Below the pieces are notes generated by a model. That model was not told the DNA's origin, did no database searches, and worked only from the letters and a program-made list of their open reading frames with translations. Both the position numbers and the translations under genes were made by a program. From Pseudomonas morbosilactucae (GTDB lineage: Bacteria; Pseudomonadota; Gammaproteobacteria; Pseudomonadales; Pseudomonadaceae): 64,000 nucleotides of DNA. The DNA lies in the NCBI RefSeq assembly GCF_023241715.1, contig NZ_JALQCW010000028.1:1-64000 (forward strand). Direction: 5' to 3'. Of the stretch, positions 5,247-17,283 are shown piece by piece. Every line of letters starts with the position of its first letter. Position 1 is the first letter of the stretch.

Positions 5247-6380
5247 ATGACCCATCACAGCGATCTACTGATCGTCGGCGCCGGCATCCTCGGTCTGTCC
5301 CACGCTTATGCGGCCGCCAAGCGCGGTTTGCGGGTGCGGGTTTTCGAGCGCAGCGCCACGCCCCTGGGCGCCTCGGTGCGCAACTTCGGCCAGGCCCTGG
5401 TCACCGGCCAACCGCCGGGCATCATGCTGGAGCTGGCCCGCGCCAGCCGGGAGATCTGGGCCGACTGGCAACAACTGGCGGGCCTGCCGCTCAAGCGCAA
5501 CGGTTCCTACCTGTTCGCCCGCAGTGAAGCCGAAGGGCATTTGCTGGAAGCCTTCTGTGCCGGCCGTGCCCGCGAGCATGGCTATCGGGTTGAACTGCTT
5601 CAGGGCGCGGCCTTGAACGATCTGTATGGCGGCCAGTTCCGCCATCACCGCGCGGCACTCCACGGCCTGGACGACCAGCAGCTGTACTCCCGGGAAGCCA
5701 TCCCGGCGTTGATCGACTACCTGCGGCGCGACCTGGGTGTGGCGTTTCACTTCTCGACCCTGGTGCGGGATATCGAGCCGGGGCAACTGCACAGCACCGC
5801 CGGGAGCTTCCGCGCGCCACGCATCGTGCTGTGTTCGGGGCATGATTATCAGACCCTGCTGGCCGAGCAGATCGCCGCCTTGCAACCGCAGATCTGTCGC
5901 TTGCAGATGCTGCGCGCCCGGCCCCAGGTCAACTTGAACCTGCAACACGCGTTGCTCACCGGCTTGAGCTGCGTGCATTACGGGGCCTTTGCCGATTTGC
6001 CGGAAGCGGCGGCGGTGCAGGCGCAGATCCTCACTGAGGCGCCCCACTTGCACGAACACGGCATCCACCTGCTGATCAGCCCGACCCCTTATGGCGAGTT
6101 GATCATCGGTGATTCCCACGATTACGGCAGGGATCCATCGCCGTTCAACGCCGAACAGGTGGATAACTGGTTGATCGAGCTGGCCGAACACACCCTGGGC
6201 TGCAAGGTCCAGGTGGTGGAGCGCTGGCAGGGCGTTTATGGCGCGCGCGGGCCCGCGCCGTTCTCGTTCCTGGAGGCGGCGCCCGGGGTGCATGCGGCGC
6301 TGATGCACACCGGGGTGGGCATGAGTGTTGGCCCGGCGATGGCCGAGCGCAATATCGCCCGGGTGCTGGGGGAGGCGTGA
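5247..6380 (+). CDS. FAD-dependent amine oxidoreductase of phosphonate operons (TIGR03364-like)
   Basis: A 377-residue DAO-type flavoenzyme. The dinucleotide motif GAGILG sits at residues 11-16, followed by the ribose-binding acidic residue in VFER. The family is recurrent in phosphonate gene clusters (TIGR03364). Published work, as I recall it, assigns members called PbfC/PbfD to oxidation of aminoethylphosphonate or its N-methyl form to phosphonoacetaldehyde. No aminoethylphosphonate transaminase (phnW) or phosphonatase (phnX) is visible here, so this enzyme may replace PhnW. The stop overlaps the start of the next gene (TGATG), which suggests the two proteins are made together. Confidence 0.82.
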   Translation: MTHHSDLLIVGAGILGLSHAYAAAKRGLRVRVFERSATPLGASVRNFGQALVTGQPPGIMLELARASREIWADWQQLAGLPLKRNGSYLFARSEAEGHLLEAFCAGRAREHGYRVELLQGAALNDLYGGQFRHHRAALHGLDDQQLYSREAIPALIDYLRRDLGVAFHFSTLVRDIEPGQLHSTAGSFRAPRIVLCSGHDYQTLLAEQIAALQPQICRLQMLRARPQVNLNLQHALLTGLSCVHYGAFADLPEAAAVQAQILTEAPHLHEHGIHLLISPTPYGELIIGDSHDYGRDPSPFNAEQVDNWLIELAEHTLGCKVQVVERWQGVYGARGPAPFSFLEAAPGVHAALMHTGVGMSVGPAMAERNIARVLGEA

Positions 6381-6934
6381 TGAACCGACAGCAACAGGTG
6401 ATTGCCGAGGTGTTCGGCCTGTACGAGCGCTTTGGCGATTACGACTACATCGGCGAACCGGTGTCGCAGATCGAGCACATGTCCCAGGCGGCGCAACTGG
6501 CCATCGCCGAAGGGTATGACGACGAAGTGGTGCTGGCGGCGTTCTTCCACGATATCGGGCACATCTGCCAGCAGGATGCCGAGAACATGGGCGGTTTTGG
6601 CGTGGCCAGCCATGAGCGCCTGGGGGCGGATTATCTGCGCCGTGCCGGGTTCGGCGAGCGGCTGGTGCGGCTGGTGGAATACCACGTCCAGGCCAAGCGC
6701 TACCTGACCTTCAAAGACCCCGGCTACTACCAGCGCTTGAGCGAGGCCAGCCGACGCACCCTGGCGTATCAGGGCGGGGTGATGAGCGCAGCAGAGGCGG
6801 CTGCGTTCGAGCTAGATCCCTTGTGTGCGGTGAGCCTGCGCATGCGCCACTGGGACGAGCAGGCCAAGGACATGTGGGTGCCGGTGATGGACTTGCAGAT
6901 CCTCAAGGACAAGGCCTTGGCGGTGTTGGCTTGA
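6380..6934 (+). CDS. PhnZ-like HD-domain mixed-valent diiron oxygenase, phosphonate operon type
   Basis: A 184-residue HD-domain protein of the phosphonate-degradation HDIG family (TIGR03276). The metal ligands are visible: H33, H57-D58 and H61 (FFHDIGH), H78 and H102. Y23 and E26 in DYIGE match, with the same spacing, Tyr24 and Glu27 that gate the active site of PhnZ, which cleaves 1-hydroxy-2-aminoethylphosphonate to glycine and phosphate. ATG 6380 overlaps the upstream stop and follows GGGGGAGG; a GTG at 6377 is possible. No PhnY-type hydroxylase lies beside it, so the hydroxylated substrate must be imported or made elsewhere. The reaction is inferred from conserved residues. Confidence 0.82.
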   Translation: MNRQQQVIAEVFGLYERFGDYDYIGEPVSQIEHMSQAAQLAIAEGYDDEVVLAAFFHDIGHICQQDAENMGGFGVASHERLGADYLRRAGFGERLVRLVEYHVQAKRYLTFKDPGYYQRLSEASRRTLAYQGGVMSAAEAAAFELDPLCAVSLRMRHWDEQAKDMWVPVMDLQILKDKALAVLA

Positions 6935-12071: not shown

Positions 12072-13127
12072 ATGAAACGTACTCCGAAATTCCTGGCGGT
12101 TGCACTCTGCCTGGGCCTCGCCGGCCAGGCCTTTGCCACCGAGTTGAAACACTGGCCGCAGGAGCAGGCCAAGCAGTTGGACGCGATGATCGCGGCCAAT
12201 GCCAACAAGGGTAACTACGCGGTGTTCGACATGGACAACACCAGTTACCGCTACGACCTCGAAGAGTCCTTGCTGCCCTTTATGGAGAACAAGGGCCTGA
12301 TCACCCGGGAAACCCTCGACCCGTCCCTCAAGCTGATGCCCTTCAAGGACACCGCCGAGCACAAGGAAAGCCTGTTCAGCTACTACTACCGCCTGTGTGA
12401 AGTCGACGACATGGTCTGCTACCCCTGGGTCGCCCAGGTGTTCTCGGGCTTCACCCTCAAGGAACTCAAGGGCTATGTCGACGAGTTGATGGCGTCGGGC
12501 AAGCCGGTGTCGAGCACCTACTACGACGGCGACGTGGTCAAGACCATCGAGGTCAACCCGCCCAAGGTCTTCACCGGCCAGACCGAGCTGTACAACAAGC
12601 TGATGGAGAACGGCATCGAGGTCTATGTGATGACCGCCGCCTCCGAAGAGCTGGTGCGCATGGTCGCCTCCGATCCCAAGTACGGTTACAACGTCAAACC
12701 GCAGAACGTGATCGGCGTGACCACCCTGCTCAAGGACCGCAAGACCGGCGAGCTGACCACCGCGCGCAAGCAGATCAGCAACGGCAAGTATGACGAGAAG
12801 GCCAACCTCGGCCTGGAACTGACCCCTTACCTGTGGACCCCGGCGACCTGGATGGCCGGTAAGCATGCGGCGATCCTGACTTACATCGACGAGTGGAAAA
12901 AACCGGTGCTGGTGGGCGGTGACACCCCGACCAGCGATGGCTACATGCTGTTCCACGATGTGGACGTGGCCAAAGGCGGCATCCACCTGTGGATCAACCG
13001 CAAGGACAAGTACATGACCCAGCTCAACGGCATGATGGCCAAGCACGCCGCGGCCCAGGCCAAGGAAGGGCTGCCCGTCACCGCCGACAAGAACTGGGTC
13101 ATCGTCAAACCTGAAGACATCCAGTAA
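12072..13127 (+). CDS. pchP: Phosphorylcholine phosphatase, periplasmic HAD enzyme
   Basis: A 351-residue secreted HAD-superfamily phosphatase that releases choline and phosphate from phosphorylcholine. A signal peptide ends at about residue 22 (AGQAFA). The HAD nucleophile motif DMDNT is at 53-57, which becomes D31/D33/T35 after cleavage, exactly the numbering reported for P. aeruginosa PchP. Other motifs are VMTAAS (motif II) and the lysine/GGDTPTSD segment near the C-terminus (motifs III/IV). It serves choline and phosphate scavenging, working with phospholipase C. In P. aeruginosa it is controlled by GbdR; no such site was identified here. Confidence 0.9.
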   Translation: MKRTPKFLAVALCLGLAGQAFATELKHWPQEQAKQLDAMIAANANKGNYAVFDMDNTSYRYDLEESLLPFMENKGLITRETLDPSLKLMPFKDTAEHKESLFSYYYRLCEVDDMVCYPWVAQVFSGFTLKELKGYVDELMASGKPVSSTYYDGDVVKTIEVNPPKVFTGQTELYNKLMENGIEVYVMTAASEELVRMVASDPKYGYNVKPQNVIGVTTLLKDRKTGELTTARKQISNGKYDEKANLGLELTPYLWTPATWMAGKHAAILTYIDEWKKPVLVGGDTPTSDGYMLFHDVDVAKGGIHLWINRKDKYMTQLNGMMAKHAAAQAKEGLPVTADKNWVIVKPEDIQ

Positions 13128-13145
13128 CCGCCTCGGCCCACCTAT

Positions 13146-13228
13146 GTAGGAGCCGGCTTGCCGGCGATAAGGCCCCCGTATTTGGCGCTACCCTTGGGGG
13201 CGCCATCGCTGGCAAGCCAGCTCCTACA
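13146..13228. repeat. REP doublet (REPIN-like)
   Basis: Two REP units in opposite orientation, GTAGGAGCCGGCTTGCCGG at 13146-13164 and GCTGGCAAGCCAGCTCCTAC at 13208-13227, flank a 40-base centre. The pair can form a long hairpin downstream of pchP. Confidence 0.75.
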
Positions 13229-13339
13229 GGGGGGGAGAATGTTTCAACTTGTGACAGATAAAGGCCCTCTGCCATAATCGCCGCCGCTTAACGCCGCGGC
13301 TTGTTCCTTGCGTGCTGGGCTCCCTTCCGACTGCGCGTA

Positions 13340-14752
13340 ATGGAATACGTTGTGAGCTACCTCTCGATCGAATTCGGCCTCTGCTTCATCCTGTTCTTTG
13401 TCCTGTATTGGAGCCTGTGCTGGAGTCTGCGATTGCAGAACCTGCTGTTGCTGGCGGCCAGTTACGGCATCCTCGCCAGTTTCAGCCTGGACTTCCTCTA
13501 CATCCTGCTGGGCTACAGCGCCCTGGTGTATGGGCTTGGCCACCTGGCTCGGCGTTACCCCGGACGCACTTTCGTCAACGGCTTGATCCTGCTGCTGGTG
13601 CTCGGTTGCTTCTACCTGTTCAAGTACCAGGACTTCTTTACCAGCAGCGTGCAGGCCGGCCTGGCCCAGTTCGGGCTTGAAGTGTCACTGCCGTTACTGG
13701 AAGTGCTGCTGCCGGTGGGGCTGTCGTTCTACACCTTCCATTCGGTCAGCTACCTGGTATCGATCAACCGGGGCGAGATGCAACCCGGCTCACCCCTGGA
13801 CCTGGCCCTGTACCTGGCGTTCTTCCCCAGCCTGATCGCCGGCCCGGTGAACCGCGCCAGCCACATGCTGCCGCAGATTCGTCCGCCGCAACTGCGTGAG
13901 GTGTTGGAACCCCAACGCGCCCTGGGCTTGATTGCCCTGGCGGTGGTGAAGCTGTTTTTCCTCAGTTCCTGGCTGGCCAACGAATGGGTCGACCCGGTGT
14001 TCGACAGCCCGGTGAGCTTCAGCGCCGAACAGATCCTGCGCAGCGTCTACGGCTATTCGTTCCTGATCTACTTCAACTTCAGCGGCTACACCGACCTGGT
14101 GACTGGCATTGCCCTGTTGCTGGGCTTTCGCCTGCCGCAGAACTTCAACTACCCCTACGCCGCGCGCAACCTCAAAGAATTCTGGGGGCGCTGGCACATC
14201 AGCCTGTCGACCTTTATCCGCGACTACGTCTACATCCCCCTGGGGGGCAATCGCCGTGGCGTATGGCGTGGCAACCTGAACATGCTGCTGGCCATGCTGA
14301 TTTCCGGGCTGTGGCACGGCGCCAGCGCTAACTTCATTATCTGGGGCGCGCTGCACGGTGTCGGGTTGGCGCTCTACAAACTCTGCAGTTCCTGGTTGCC
14401 GGAGCGCTCGAGTGGCCTGGTCGGCGACCTGTTGGCGCGCCTGCTGACTTTCCACTACGTGGCCTTGGCCTGGATCTTCTTCCGCTGCGCCACCTTCAGC
14501 GACGCTCTGGACATGTTCGCCGGCCTGGGCGGCCTGTCCCTGGCCGGGCTGGCCCGTGACGGTGCGGTGTTGTTGGGCTGCCTGCTGTTCGTGGCCTTCT
14601 ACCCCCTTGTCGTGGCGCTGCTGCGCCGGGTGTTCGAGGCCAGTACCCGCCTGCCGTGGCTGCTGTATCCGCTGCCGGTGGGGCTGTTTATAGGTTTGGT
14701 CATTTTTGCTTCACCGTCGGGCGTGCCGGGGTTTATCTATGCCAGTTTCTAA
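13340..14752 (+). CDS. MBOAT-family O-acyltransferase (AlgI/PatA-like)
   Basis: A 470-residue polytopic inner-membrane acyltransferase that would move acetyl groups from the cytoplasm to the periplasm. MBOAT landmarks are present: FKYQDFF near the N-terminus, NFNYPYAARNLKEFWGRWH, and the active-site region LWHGASANF with H326 and a second histidine at H339 (WGALHG). ATG 13340 was chosen; GTG 13352 is an alternative. The stop overlaps the next gene by 14 bases, and two SGNH-type periplasmic proteins follow. This is the composition of extracytoplasmic O-acetylation systems (AlgI with AlgJ/X, PatA with PatB). No glycosyltransferase lies nearby, so the acceptor polymer is unknown. Confidence 0.85.
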   Translation: MEYVVSYLSIEFGLCFILFFVLYWSLCWSLRLQNLLLLAASYGILASFSLDFLYILLGYSALVYGLGHLARRYPGRTFVNGLILLLVLGCFYLFKYQDFFTSSVQAGLAQFGLEVSLPLLEVLLPVGLSFYTFHSVSYLVSINRGEMQPGSPLDLALYLAFFPSLIAGPVNRASHMLPQIRPPQLREVLEPQRALGLIALAVVKLFFLSSWLANEWVDPVFDSPVSFSAEQILRSVYGYSFLIYFNFSGYTDLVTGIALLLGFRLPQNFNYPYAARNLKEFWGRWHISLSTFIRDYVYIPLGGNRRGVWRGNLNMLLAMLISGLWHGASANFIIWGALHGVGLALYKLCSSWLPERSSGLVGDLLARLLTFHYVALAWIFFRCATFSDALDMFAGLGGLSLAGLARDGAVLLGCLLFVAFYPLVVALLRRVFEASTRLPWLLYPLPVGLFIGLVIFASPSGVPGFIYASF

Positions 14753-15902
14753 GCGTTCTTCCTTGCTGCGCCGCCACACCGGCGCCGCCAAAGTGCTGTA
14801 CGCCATCCTGGTCATCAGCCTGATGCTGTTCTGGTTCAACCAGAACTCCATTCGCCTGTACTGCCAGCAGAAGTATCACGACGGCTGTGACATCCCGGCG
14901 CTGTCGCAAAACCCCGAGTGGCGCCTGGGGGGCCAACTCAACCAGCAGTTGGAGGAGGCCCGCGTGGCTTTCTTCGGCCGTTTCGACGTGAACCTGGTGG
15001 CCCAGGCGCAGGCCGCGTCCGAGGATGAACCCCTGGCGCCGTTGCCGAGCCTGGCGGTCGAGCCTGAGCCGCAGCCCGAGCCGCAGCATGAAGCTGGCCA
15101 TCAAGCCGCGCATCAAGCGACACACGAGCCGACACACGAGACCGTGCCGGTCGCCCATGGGCTGCCTGCGCCGGACGTCGAAGCGCCGGCGCCGGCCACC
15201 GTGGTGGAGACCTCGCACCCGGCACCGCCGGCCCTGCCGCTGGTGGTCACCCTGGCGGAAGGTGATGAAGTGTTTTTTGTCGGCGACTCGCTGATGCAGG
15301 GCGTGGCGCCACACATGGCCAACACCCTGCGCAAACGCTACAACGTGAAAAGCACCAACCTCAGCCGGCAGAGCACCGGGCTGGCCTACCCCAACTTCTT
15401 CAACTGGCCCAAGACGGTCGAGAGCACCTTGGCGGCCAACCCGAAGATCCGCCTGATGGTGATTTTCCTGGGGCCCAACGACCCTTGGGACATGCCCGAT
15501 GGCAAAGGCAAGCCGTTCTTGCGCTTCAAACACCCGGACTGGGAAGTGGCCTACCGGCAACGCATCGACTCGATCCTCGACGTTGCCCGTGACCGCGGCG
15601 TGCAGGTGATCTGGGTCGGCCCGCCGAACATGGAAAAAGCCAAGCTGTCGGCGGCTATGGCGTACTTGAATGAGCTCTATAAAAGCCAGATCGAGCTTTA
15701 CCACCAGCACTTTGTCTCGGCCAACCGGATCCTGGGCTATGAAAACGACACGTTTTCCTATTACCTGACCGCCAACGGCCAGAAGAAGGTCAAGACCCGC
15801 GTTGACGACGGCATCCATTTCACCCCCACGGGGCAGAAGTTGATCGCCGAGGGGGTGCTGTCCCTGATCCAATTTCCCACCCCACAATTGACGGAGCACT
15901 GA
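14739..15902 (+). CDS. Membrane-anchored SGNH/GDSL acyltransferase or esterase (DUF459-like)
   Basis: A 387-residue protein. A short basic cytoplasmic N-terminus precedes one membrane segment at about residues 18-34 (VLYAILVISLMLFWF). A Pro/Glu/His/Thr-rich linker at about 97-165 follows, then an SGNH domain. Catalytic blocks are visible: GDSLMQG with S184, GPNDPW, and DGIHFTP with D357 and H360. The topology (one anchor, periplasmic SGNH domain) fits a PatB/AlgJ-like transferase accepting acetyl from the upstream MBOAT protein. ATG 14739 overlaps the MBOAT stop; a start at 14706 in the same frame is less likely. Transferase versus hydrolase activity cannot be decided from sequence. Confidence 0.82.
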   Translation: MPVSKRSSLLRRHTGAAKVLYAILVISLMLFWFNQNSIRLYCQQKYHDGCDIPALSQNPEWRLGGQLNQQLEEARVAFFGRFDVNLVAQAQAASEDEPLAPLPSLAVEPEPQPEPQHEAGHQAAHQATHEPTHETVPVAHGLPAPDVEAPAPATVVETSHPAPPALPLVVTLAEGDEVFFVGDSLMQGVAPHMANTLRKRYNVKSTNLSRQSTGLAYPNFFNWPKTVESTLAANPKIRLMVIFLGPNDPWDMPDGKGKPFLRFKHPDWEVAYRQRIDSILDVARDRGVQVIWVGPPNMEKAKLSAAMAYLNELYKSQIELYHQHFVSANRILGYENDTFSYYLTANGQKKVKTRVDDGIHFTPTGQKLIAEGVLSLIQFPTPQLTEH

Positions 15903-15903
15903 C

Positions 15904-17130
15904 ATGGGCCGACTGCAGGGCGTCGCGCTGTTGCTGAGCATTACTTTGCTGTGCAGCTGCAGCCCGACTGCCGAAGTCCAGGCGACGCCGGCCACGCTCC
16001 AGGGCAAGGCAGGAGCGAGTGCGAAGAAACCTCAACCGGTGCTGGGCAGTGACCCCAACCTCGCGGGCCTGGCGCGCAAACTCAAGACCTCTGACCGCAC
16101 GCCTATCAGCATTGTCCAGTTGGGCGATTCGCACACGGCGGCCGATCTGTTCAGCGGCGAAATGCGCCGGTTGCTGCAAGCCCAATACGGTGATGGCGGC
16201 ATCGGTTTCATTGCCGCAACACCGGTGCCCGGTACGCGCTATGAGCGGGTGATCCTCAACGTTGCCAAGCGCCAATGGTCGCTGGTGTCGGCGCGCAATC
16301 AACAAAGCAACCAGTTCCCCCTGGGCGGCTACCTGTCATTGCCGATGACCCCGGGCGCCCGGGTCAACATCGCCGAACGCCAGCCCAGCACCCAGCAATA
16401 TCGGATCTCCGCGCTGTACTCGGCCACCAGCAACAGCAGCCTGAATGCCCGGGACAACCGCAACAAGGCCAGCCGCATGCTCGCCGCGACCGGTGGGCAA
16501 TGGCGCTTCAGCCCGCCGTTCAACAACCTGACATTGCCGGCAGACTTCAGCGTCGGCAGTGACCAGGGGCTGGCCCTGGGCGGTTGGAACATCCTCGCCC
16601 AGAAGAGCGCCGGGGTGATTTATTCGTCCCTGGGCATCAACGGCGCCCGACTGGACGTGCAAGACAAGTGGCAGCCGGGCTGGATGGACAGTCTCAAGGC
16701 ACTGCGCCCGGACATGGTGGTGCTGGCCTATGGCACCAACGAGGCCTTTGATGACGACCTGGACCTGGCCCTGTACCGCAGCCAGTTGCAGGACAAGGTC
16801 AACCTGCTGCGCCAGAACCTGCCCAAGGCGGTGATTGTGCTGGTGGGCCCGCCGGACTCGATCAAGCGCCGCGGCGCCGGCAGTTGCGCCGCCGCTCAGC
16901 CCCAGCCGTTGCGCCAGGTGATTCAGATCCAGAAGGACATGGCCCAGCGCAACCGCACGCTGTTCTGGGACTGGCAGGCCTTTATGGGCGGTGACTGCTC
17001 CATCCGCCAATGGCAGGCCAGCGAGCTGGCGCGCAATGACCTGGTGCACCTGAGCGCCGAGGGTTACCGCAAAAGCGCCGACGGTTTGTACCGCTACCTG
17101 CGCGGACAACTGGGCGAACGCATGCCCTAA
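15904..17130 (+). CDS. SGNH/GDSL hydrolase, probable lipoprotein (Ape1-like)
   Basis: A 408-residue exported protein. The N-terminus MGRLQGVALLLSITLLCSC ends in a lipobox-like LCSC, so it is probably a lipoprotein. SGNH blocks are present: VQLGDSHTA with S76, YGTNEAF, and DLVHLSAEGY with D379 and H382. The GDSH form, the nearby YGDGGIGF segment and the D-x-x-H spacing are those I associate with the Ape1-type peptidoglycan O-acetylesterases. ATG follows the previous stop by one base, so the three genes form one operon. It may remove or edit acetyl groups added by the two upstream proteins. Function is inferred. Confidence 0.8.
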   Translation: MGRLQGVALLLSITLLCSCSPTAEVQATPATLQGKAGASAKKPQPVLGSDPNLAGLARKLKTSDRTPISIVQLGDSHTAADLFSGEMRRLLQAQYGDGGIGFIAATPVPGTRYERVILNVAKRQWSLVSARNQQSNQFPLGGYLSLPMTPGARVNIAERQPSTQQYRISALYSATSNSSLNARDNRNKASRMLAATGGQWRFSPPFNNLTLPADFSVGSDQGLALGGWNILAQKSAGVIYSSLGINGARLDVQDKWQPGWMDSLKALRPDMVVLAYGTNEAFDDDLDLALYRSQLQDKVNLLRQNLPKAVIVLVGPPDSIKRRGAGSCAAAQPQPLRQVIQIQKDMAQRNRTLFWDWQAFMGGDCSIRQWQASELARNDLVHLSAEGYRKSADGLYRYLRGQLGERMP

Positions 17131-17134
17131 GCCT

Positions 17135-17211
17135 TGTGGGCGCTGGCTTGCCAACGATTGGCGCTCAGCTTGAGGGCTTATCGCCGGCAAGCCGGCTCCT
17201 ACGCAGGGGTG
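17135..17211. repeat. REP doublet
   Basis: Two diverged REP units in opposite orientation (CGCTGGCTTGCC around 17141-17152 and TCGCCGGCAAGCCGGCTCCT around 17181-17200) follow the SGNH lipoprotein gene. Confidence 0.65.
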
Positions 17212-17235: not shown

Positions 17236-17264
17236 AAAATGCCCCGCACTTGGCGGGGCATTTT
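17236..17264. terminator. Bidirectional intrinsic terminator
   Basis: A 12-bp stem AAAATGCCCCGC / GCGGGGCATTTT with a 5-base loop, with A-run on one side and T-run on the other, sits between the convergent SGNH operon and ilvD. It can end both transcripts. Confidence 0.85.
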
Positions 17265-17283
17265 CATTTCCGGGCGAGGGTGA

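Follow-up and report, generated by a model that had tools for sequence, protein, structure and literature searches.

Does any Pseudomonas encode a genuine system for the O-acetylation of peptidoglycan? The question is raised by three adjacent genes of Pseudomonas morbosilactucae, found in the first 64,000 nucleotides of contig NZ_JALQCW010000028.1 (assembly GCF_023241715.1; this whole stretch is called the window below). They encode an MBOAT acyltransferase followed by two SGNH proteins, and an earlier note made from the sequence had likened them to PatA, PatB and Ape1. It had also observed that pseudomonads are not generally regarded as O-acetylating their peptidoglycan, and two reviews bear this out for P. 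aeruginosa or for some pseudomonads. P. aeruginosa has been named among the bacteria without this modification, the table of species with an O-acetyl-peptidoglycan (OAP) cluster in a 2018 review shows no Pseudomonas, and “some Pseudomonads” are named as not O-acetylating (PMC6783866). We conclude, with a probability of roughly 85%, that the three genes are a genuine OAP cluster, patA-patB-ape1, acting on peptidoglycan. This reading rests on the homology and domains of the proteins, their key residues and predicted folds, and the order and conservation of the genes. Our confidence in the identities of the genes is high, and in peptidoglycan as the acceptor good, if not final.

The three genes are encoded on the same strand and are tightly coupled (Table 1): patA and patB share 14 bases, and a single base lies between patB and ape1. 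All the frames and every catalytic residue number given in the earlier note (H326 of PatA; S184, D357 and H360 of PatB; S76, D379 and H382 of Ape1) were reproduced exactly. The arrangement follows the rule given for Ape1a-type clusters, i.e., pat, patB (ape2) and ape1 in that order on one strand (PMC1199599), and the order patA-patB-ape1 is kept in all 45 Pseudomonas loci that hold patA (window included). The ratios of non-synonymous to synonymous substitution rates (dN/dS) ranged from 0.02 to 0.22 across 12 gene pairs from complete clusters, and from 0.05 to 0.22 in the eight pairs computed for patA and patB. Given these low ratios, the conserved order and the Pfam matches well above their cut-offs, the frames are real and not chance ones.

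Table 1. Features of the patA-patB-ape1 locus and its borders (positions in the window).
Feature	Position	Strand	Description
Inverted-repeat pair (REPIN-like)	13138..13235		upstream of patA
Promoter-like site	13249..13278	+	GTGACA, 16 nt, CATAAT; TG before the second hexamer; overlapping second register
patA	13340..14752	+	MBOAT protein, 470 aa; H326; C-terminal acyl-shuttle motif FIYASF with Y467
patB	14739..15902	+	DUF459 SGNH protein, 387 aa; SGNH domain with S184, S212, N247, D357, H360
ape1	15904..17130	+	SGNH esterase with Ape1_N, 408 aa; S76, N279, D379, H382; N-terminal lipobox-like LCSC
Repeats complementary to those before patA	17132..17207		downstream of ape1
Hairpin with T-rich tail	17240..17266		between ape1 and ilvD; seen by eye, absent from the program listing

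PatB matched DUF459 with 222 bits (Pfam cut-off 27.2) and has a Ser-Asp-His triad made of S184, D357 and H360. Among proteins of solved structure, it matched PatB of Neisseria gonorrhoeae (NgPatB) at 1e-57 and PatB of Campylobacter jejuni (CjPatB) at about 2e-41. The triad, S212 and N247 were unchanged in all 46 Pseudomonas rows of the alignment (window included). Block II is also distinctive. Most SGNH enzymes have a Gly where NgPatB has a Ser, a replacement described as exceptional with one other case known (PMC12148441), and S212 of the window's protein, likewise non-canonical, aligns with this Ser and with the Asn of CjPatB. The AlphaFold2 models of PatB and Ape1 were built from alignments of 13 rows. 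That of PatB had a mean predicted local distance difference test score (pLDDT) of 70.0, with values below 50 at residues 82–164, and its top Foldseek match was 7tjb (E 4.3e-22, 43% identity). The first five ranks were PatB entries, the fifth being 8gr2, titled as the C. jejuni esterase Cj0610c, and the next match was at 8.5e-7. The low-confidence part of the model is a linker rich in Ala, Pro, Glu and His (residues about 85–169, window 14991–15245) between a predicted N-terminal helix (residues 9–33) and the SGNH domain; its length varies from 41 to 108 residues across the 46 aligned rows. Two cysteines, Cys 42 and Cys 50, precede this linker and are kept in all 45 rows that hold them.

Ape1 matched the Ape1_N domain (PF22753, “Peptidoglycan O-acetylesterase, N-terminal”) with 62.8 bits (cut-off 27), together with a GDSL domain, and S76, D379 and H382 lie in its GDSH and DxxH blocks, which are typical of SGNH proteins. 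The best match among solved structures was 4k3u (5e-52), titled “Peptidoglycan O-acetylesterase in action”, which we take to be a Neisseria protein; 8gkd and 8gld, which are C. jejuni Ape1, followed at about 5e-31. The predicted model (mean pLDDT 76.3) also returned 4k3u first (E 2.1e-31, target TM score 0.88, 30% identity). Ranks one to five were Ape1 chains and the next match was at 2.7e-9. S76 was the same in all 49 Ape1 rows, and D379 and H382 in 47; of the other two rows, one has a broken frame (L024) and one comes from a frameshifted gene (L030). A loose pattern found a lipobox-like N terminus in 41 of the 49 rows, and of the eight rows without a match, three contain a GCS and would be accepted by a looser pattern. 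The window's LCSC is among the 41 and suggests that its Ape1 is lipid-anchored. Profiles and folds thus placed the two SGNH proteins with PatB and Ape1. A placement among unrelated lipases, which the earlier note had named as a refutation, did not occur, and the analogy drawn in that note proved to be homology. The acetylxylan esterase AxeA1 (NF042968) was also rejected as an identity for ape1 (18.8 bits, curated cut-off 700).

The MBOAT domain of PatA scored 85.5 bits (PF03062, cut-off 27). H326 and Y467 were invariant in the 45 rows of the Pseudomonas alignment (window included), L062 and L063 having been excluded from the residue counts as non-PatA MBOATs. Its tail (residues 465–470) fits FXYXXF, the acyl-shuttle motif of PatA-type MBOATs, which is printed as FIYSSF for C. 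jejuni (PMC12148441), and FIYA[SG]F ends all 45 rows. The motif alone is not specific for PatA, because the other two of the three MBOATs of the genome, both on other contigs than the window, end in FLYFQF and fit it too. One of them sits among ALGX-family and alginate lyase genes, the other is next to BcsC and ALGX-family genes and to one that is AlgF-like, though below the cut-off for that family; hence we call them AlgI and WssH. In a quick tree that included only these two non-PatA MBOATs, and was built without Neisseria or Campylobacter PatA, the window's protein grouped with PatA of named three-gene clusters, and the 55 PatA rows were parted from AlgI and WssH with 100% support in the Shimodaira-Hasegawa-like approximate likelihood-ratio test (SH-aLRT). 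Might the genes nevertheless be a third AlgI/AlgJ- or DltB/DltD-like system that merely resembles OAP genes? The only NCBIfam model reached by PatA was that of DltB (TIGR04091), solved DltB structures matched it at about 4e-27, and its identity to the genome's own AlgI is appreciable (see below). Yet the 157.8 bits obtained with TIGR04091 are far below the curated cut-off of 375, which led us to reject DltB/DltD, the assignments of PatB and Ape1 are strong, and PatA stands apart from AlgI and WssH in the tree. We regard such a system as extremely improbable.

The proposed mechanism follows what is described for Neisseria and Campylobacter. PatA would take acetyl from cytoplasmic acetyl-CoA via H326 and load it onto Y467 of the FIYASF tail. 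PatB, tethered by its single N-terminal helix and flexible linker, would accept the acetyl on S184 and pass it to the C-6 hydroxyl of N-acetylmuramic acid in peptidoglycan. Ape1, periplasmic and probably lipid-anchored, would remove it, so that lytic transglycosylases can act. In the published systems PatA acetylates its own tail Tyr from acetyl-CoA, the PatB Ser carries the group to peptidoglycan and Ape1 removes it; the loss of ape1 in C. jejuni increased O-acetylation and decreased anhydro-muropeptides (PMC12148441, PMC5077204). The acetyl-Tyr step, the acceptor and the control of autolysins would thus be as in these organisms, by analogy.

Several points weigh against an OAP cluster acting on peptidoglycan. 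Function is predicted here from genes and modelled folds, and genes do not prove the modification: O-acetylated peptidoglycan was reported in eight of nine cluster-bearing species, but Agrobacterium, which has related genes, shows only minimal O-acetylation (PMC1199599). PatB scored 289.2 bits over 361 residues with NF045704, for which the cut-off is 580; having missed this naming threshold, the protein is filed under DUF459/PatB, in agreement with its domain, triad and fold, and not under NF045704. PatA reached no peptidoglycan-specific NCBIfam model. In BLASTP it scored 205 bits with the genome's own AlgI (35% identity) and 174 bits with its own WssH (32%), vs 222–296 bits with ten PatA of other genera. 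PatA alone is thus weakly diagnostic, and since the pairwise distance to AlgI and WssH is less clear, its assignment depends on its place in the tree, its tail motif and the partner genes. In one genome (G108, locus L030, about 6100–6924) ape1 appears frameshifted, being split over two frames, while patA and patB are intact; this may reflect an error in sequencing or a genuine loss of the esterase. Finally, two of the 46 PatB loci, L034 (G149) and L038 (G181), adjoin genes of the cellulose-acetylation type.

These last two loci, where the neighbours are WssH/WssI-like, bear on the acceptor. The PatAB-type pair could acetylate another envelope or secreted polymer, e.g., cellulose or lipopolysaccharide, and the Ape1 homologue could remove those esters; alginate and cellulose are indeed acetylated by MBOAT-SGNH pairs (PMC12148441). 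However, the SGNH partner is a DUF459 protein and not of the ALGX family found beside the genome's other two MBOATs: Pfam gave no ALGX match to either SGNH protein of the window at E up to 1. In the fetched flanks of the remaining 44 PatB loci (a few kb; L024 is cut by the contig end) there was no open reading frame (ORF) of the ALGX partner group, and the nearest matches, among domains and solved folds alike, are peptidoglycan enzymes. The window's genes were rejected as alginate or cellulose acetylation genes, which have a different SGNH family and their own copies elsewhere in the genome. Another polymer is therefore quite unlikely as the acceptor, and peptidoglycan is preferred.

How widespread is the OAP cluster? 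Ape1_N was found in 49 of the 398 Pseudomonas genomes of the genus draw and in three of the 398 genomes of the phylum draw, the window's genome being one of these three. The 14 control genomes had no Ape1_N and a single DUF459 match (Bacteroides ihuae). DUF459 matched 96 genomes of the genus draw at E up to 0.001, 60 of them above the Pfam cut-off. Strong, near-full-length matches (E at most 1.4e-60) occurred in 46 genomes, all among the 49 with Ape1_N, and the other 50 had only weak matches (best 1.1e-5), which are probably other SGNH proteins. The full patA-patB-ape1 order was present at 44 of the 48 other Ape1_N sites that were fetched; L024 ends at the contig before patA, and L035, L037 and L043 have ape1 alone. 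Pseudomonas chlororaphis 14D6 encodes three proteins identical to the window's. This strain is one of 13 named loci, all with the three genes, which include P. fluorescens FW300-N2E3, Pseudomonas sp. MF4836 and records of Moraxella, Bordetella, Achromobacter, Thermomonas and Xanthomonas; they are no measure of spread, because the contig scan used one protein. Plasmid matches (23 records, all below 60% identity) say little about mobility, because several of the 10 records listed are megabase-sized.

This patchy occurrence, the three genomes with ape1 but without patAB and the one frameshifted ape1 are what might be expected of a vestigial cluster, with genes still recognisable and the modification absent under normal conditions. 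On the other hand, the frames of the window are intact, the catalytic residues are kept and the complete clusters have the low dN/dS given above. We consider decay of this kind very unlikely, and an OAP system acting on peptidoglycan remains our reading.

In each of the three protein trees the Pseudomonas rows were on one side, opposite the ten rows of other genera, and split into the same four main subclades. Left out of these trees were L014 (identical to the window), L064 (likewise identical), L024 (broken at the contig end) and L030 (frameshifted). The four subclades match four chromosomal settings, as judged from flanking ORFs grouped with a codon-composition filter and from Pfam searches of 20 chosen proteins. 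Ten full clusters, that of the window included, and three orphan ape1 lie between a HAD-like gene and ilvD. Another 28 lie beside dxs, ispA or xseB genes, to which we add L040, by a shared flanking ORF, and probably L024. Four are at a site followed by an aldehyde dehydrogenase gene, and two are beside the WssH/WssI-like genes mentioned above. The support for the HAD-ilvD clade was 97/99 (PatB), 92/99 (Ape1) and 99 (PatA).

We surveyed the HAD-ilvD site in 14 loci, hand-picked from the 46 of 59 genomes with the HAD-like gene; in two of the 14 genomes (G003 and G007) the cluster is present elsewhere. In 11 of the 14, about 70–330 bases separate the HAD-like gene from ilvD, and no ilvD was present in the stretch fetched for L090. 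In L087 (1468–5524) and L092 (1368–5411) the gap holds, as seen by eye, a FecI/FecR-like pair and a TonB-dependent receptor. What lies in this gap thus differs between species.

The orphan ape1 genes (L035 in G158, L037 in G178 and L043 in G214) are found at this same site, without patA or patB there and without a strong DUF459 match in the genome. Their proteins form one clade (100/100), whose grouping with the HAD-ilvD clade was not rejected, nor shown, by the approximately unbiased test (p-AU 0.27). Gly replaces Thr278 in the three proteins, and L037 and L043 lack a lipobox-like motif. The orphan dN/dS was 0.39 in a close pair with few changes and 0.12 in a distant pair with saturated dS, vs 0.02–0.16 in four Ape1 pairs from complete clusters; judging from these sequences, constraint on the orphans may therefore be relaxed. 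In one scenario peptidoglycan O-acetylation is a real, patchy and overlooked trait of Pseudomonas, maintained at four chromosomal sites; some species would have lost the transferase pair and kept an altered, stand-alone Ape1 that now removes acetyl from the peptidoglycan fragments of other cells or from another polymer. As a whole we find this scenario unlikely.

The nearest genes around the cluster encode a dicarboxylate symporter, a weakly HAD-like protein and the ilvD product. The earlier note's remark that no exopolysaccharide genes lie nearby holds for these nearest genes, which is the scope checked. At 12072–13127 a protein of 351 residues with a signal-like N terminus matched no Pfam family above its cut-off and is 81–93% identical in 45 other genomes of the 59 searched. 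A sigma-70-like site about 60 bases upstream of patA agrees with the consensus at 10 of 12 positions and has the TG, a consensus match only. The region has three promoter-like sites vs 0.7 expected, two of them being the overlapping registers 5' of patA. The inverted repeats that flank the cluster are REPIN-like. Paired inverted repeats, several copies on each side, flank the cluster also in L022, L048, L058 and L060. Relatives that lack the cluster have a matching stretch next to ilvD, so the hairpin downstream of ape1 is probably that of ilvD.

Ape1_N thus occurs in about one in eight of the Pseudomonas genomes sampled, and almost all of these have the complete cluster, despite the picture given by the reviews. 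We found no report of an OAP cluster or of O-acetylated peptidoglycan in a Pseudomonas among the titles and abstract openings listed, a coverage that leaves out most subscription journals. For P. aeruginosa muropeptides, de-N-acetylation was reported, and O-acetylation is mentioned in the introduction only, in the accessible text of PMC9239049; in that of PMC6719521 the term occurs only in the reference list. If the system is active, one would expect shifts in lysozyme sensitivity, in autolysin control and in muropeptide release in the species that bear it. Within the genus, related species that have an OAP system could also be compared, as a natural experiment, with ones that lack it.

The cluster is not of a new kind: the system is known, and it is the genus that is under-recognised as a bearer of it. 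The OAP cluster of Neisseria (patA, patB, formerly ape2, and ape1) has the same three families in the same order. NgPatB is the best solved match of the window's PatB (43% identity in the fold alignment) and shares its block II Ser, and the best Ape1 match, 4k3u, is presumably from Neisseria (30%). The window's Ape1 differs from the Neisseria entry by its lipobox-like N terminus; signal peptidase I cleavage was predicted for Ape1 proteins, with four listed exceptions (PMC1199599). The OAP clusters of Moraxella have all three homologues in the same order; M. catarrhalis, which is in the 2018 review table, has proteins (L068) about 36% (PatA), 39% (PatB) and 32% (Ape1) identical to those of the window. 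The patA, patB and ape1 of C. jejuni are the paradigm for the mechanism, and the predicted folds match their PatB at E 2.2e-19 and their Ape1 at E 5.1e-27, although block II has an Asn in CjPatB and a Ser in the window. The systems for alginate (AlgI with AlgJ/AlgX) and cellulose (WssH with WssI) share the MBOAT and SGNH logic and an FXYXXF-type tail, but in this genome they have an ALGX-family SGNH partner and an MBOAT ending in FLYFQF, whereas that of the window ends in FIYASF.

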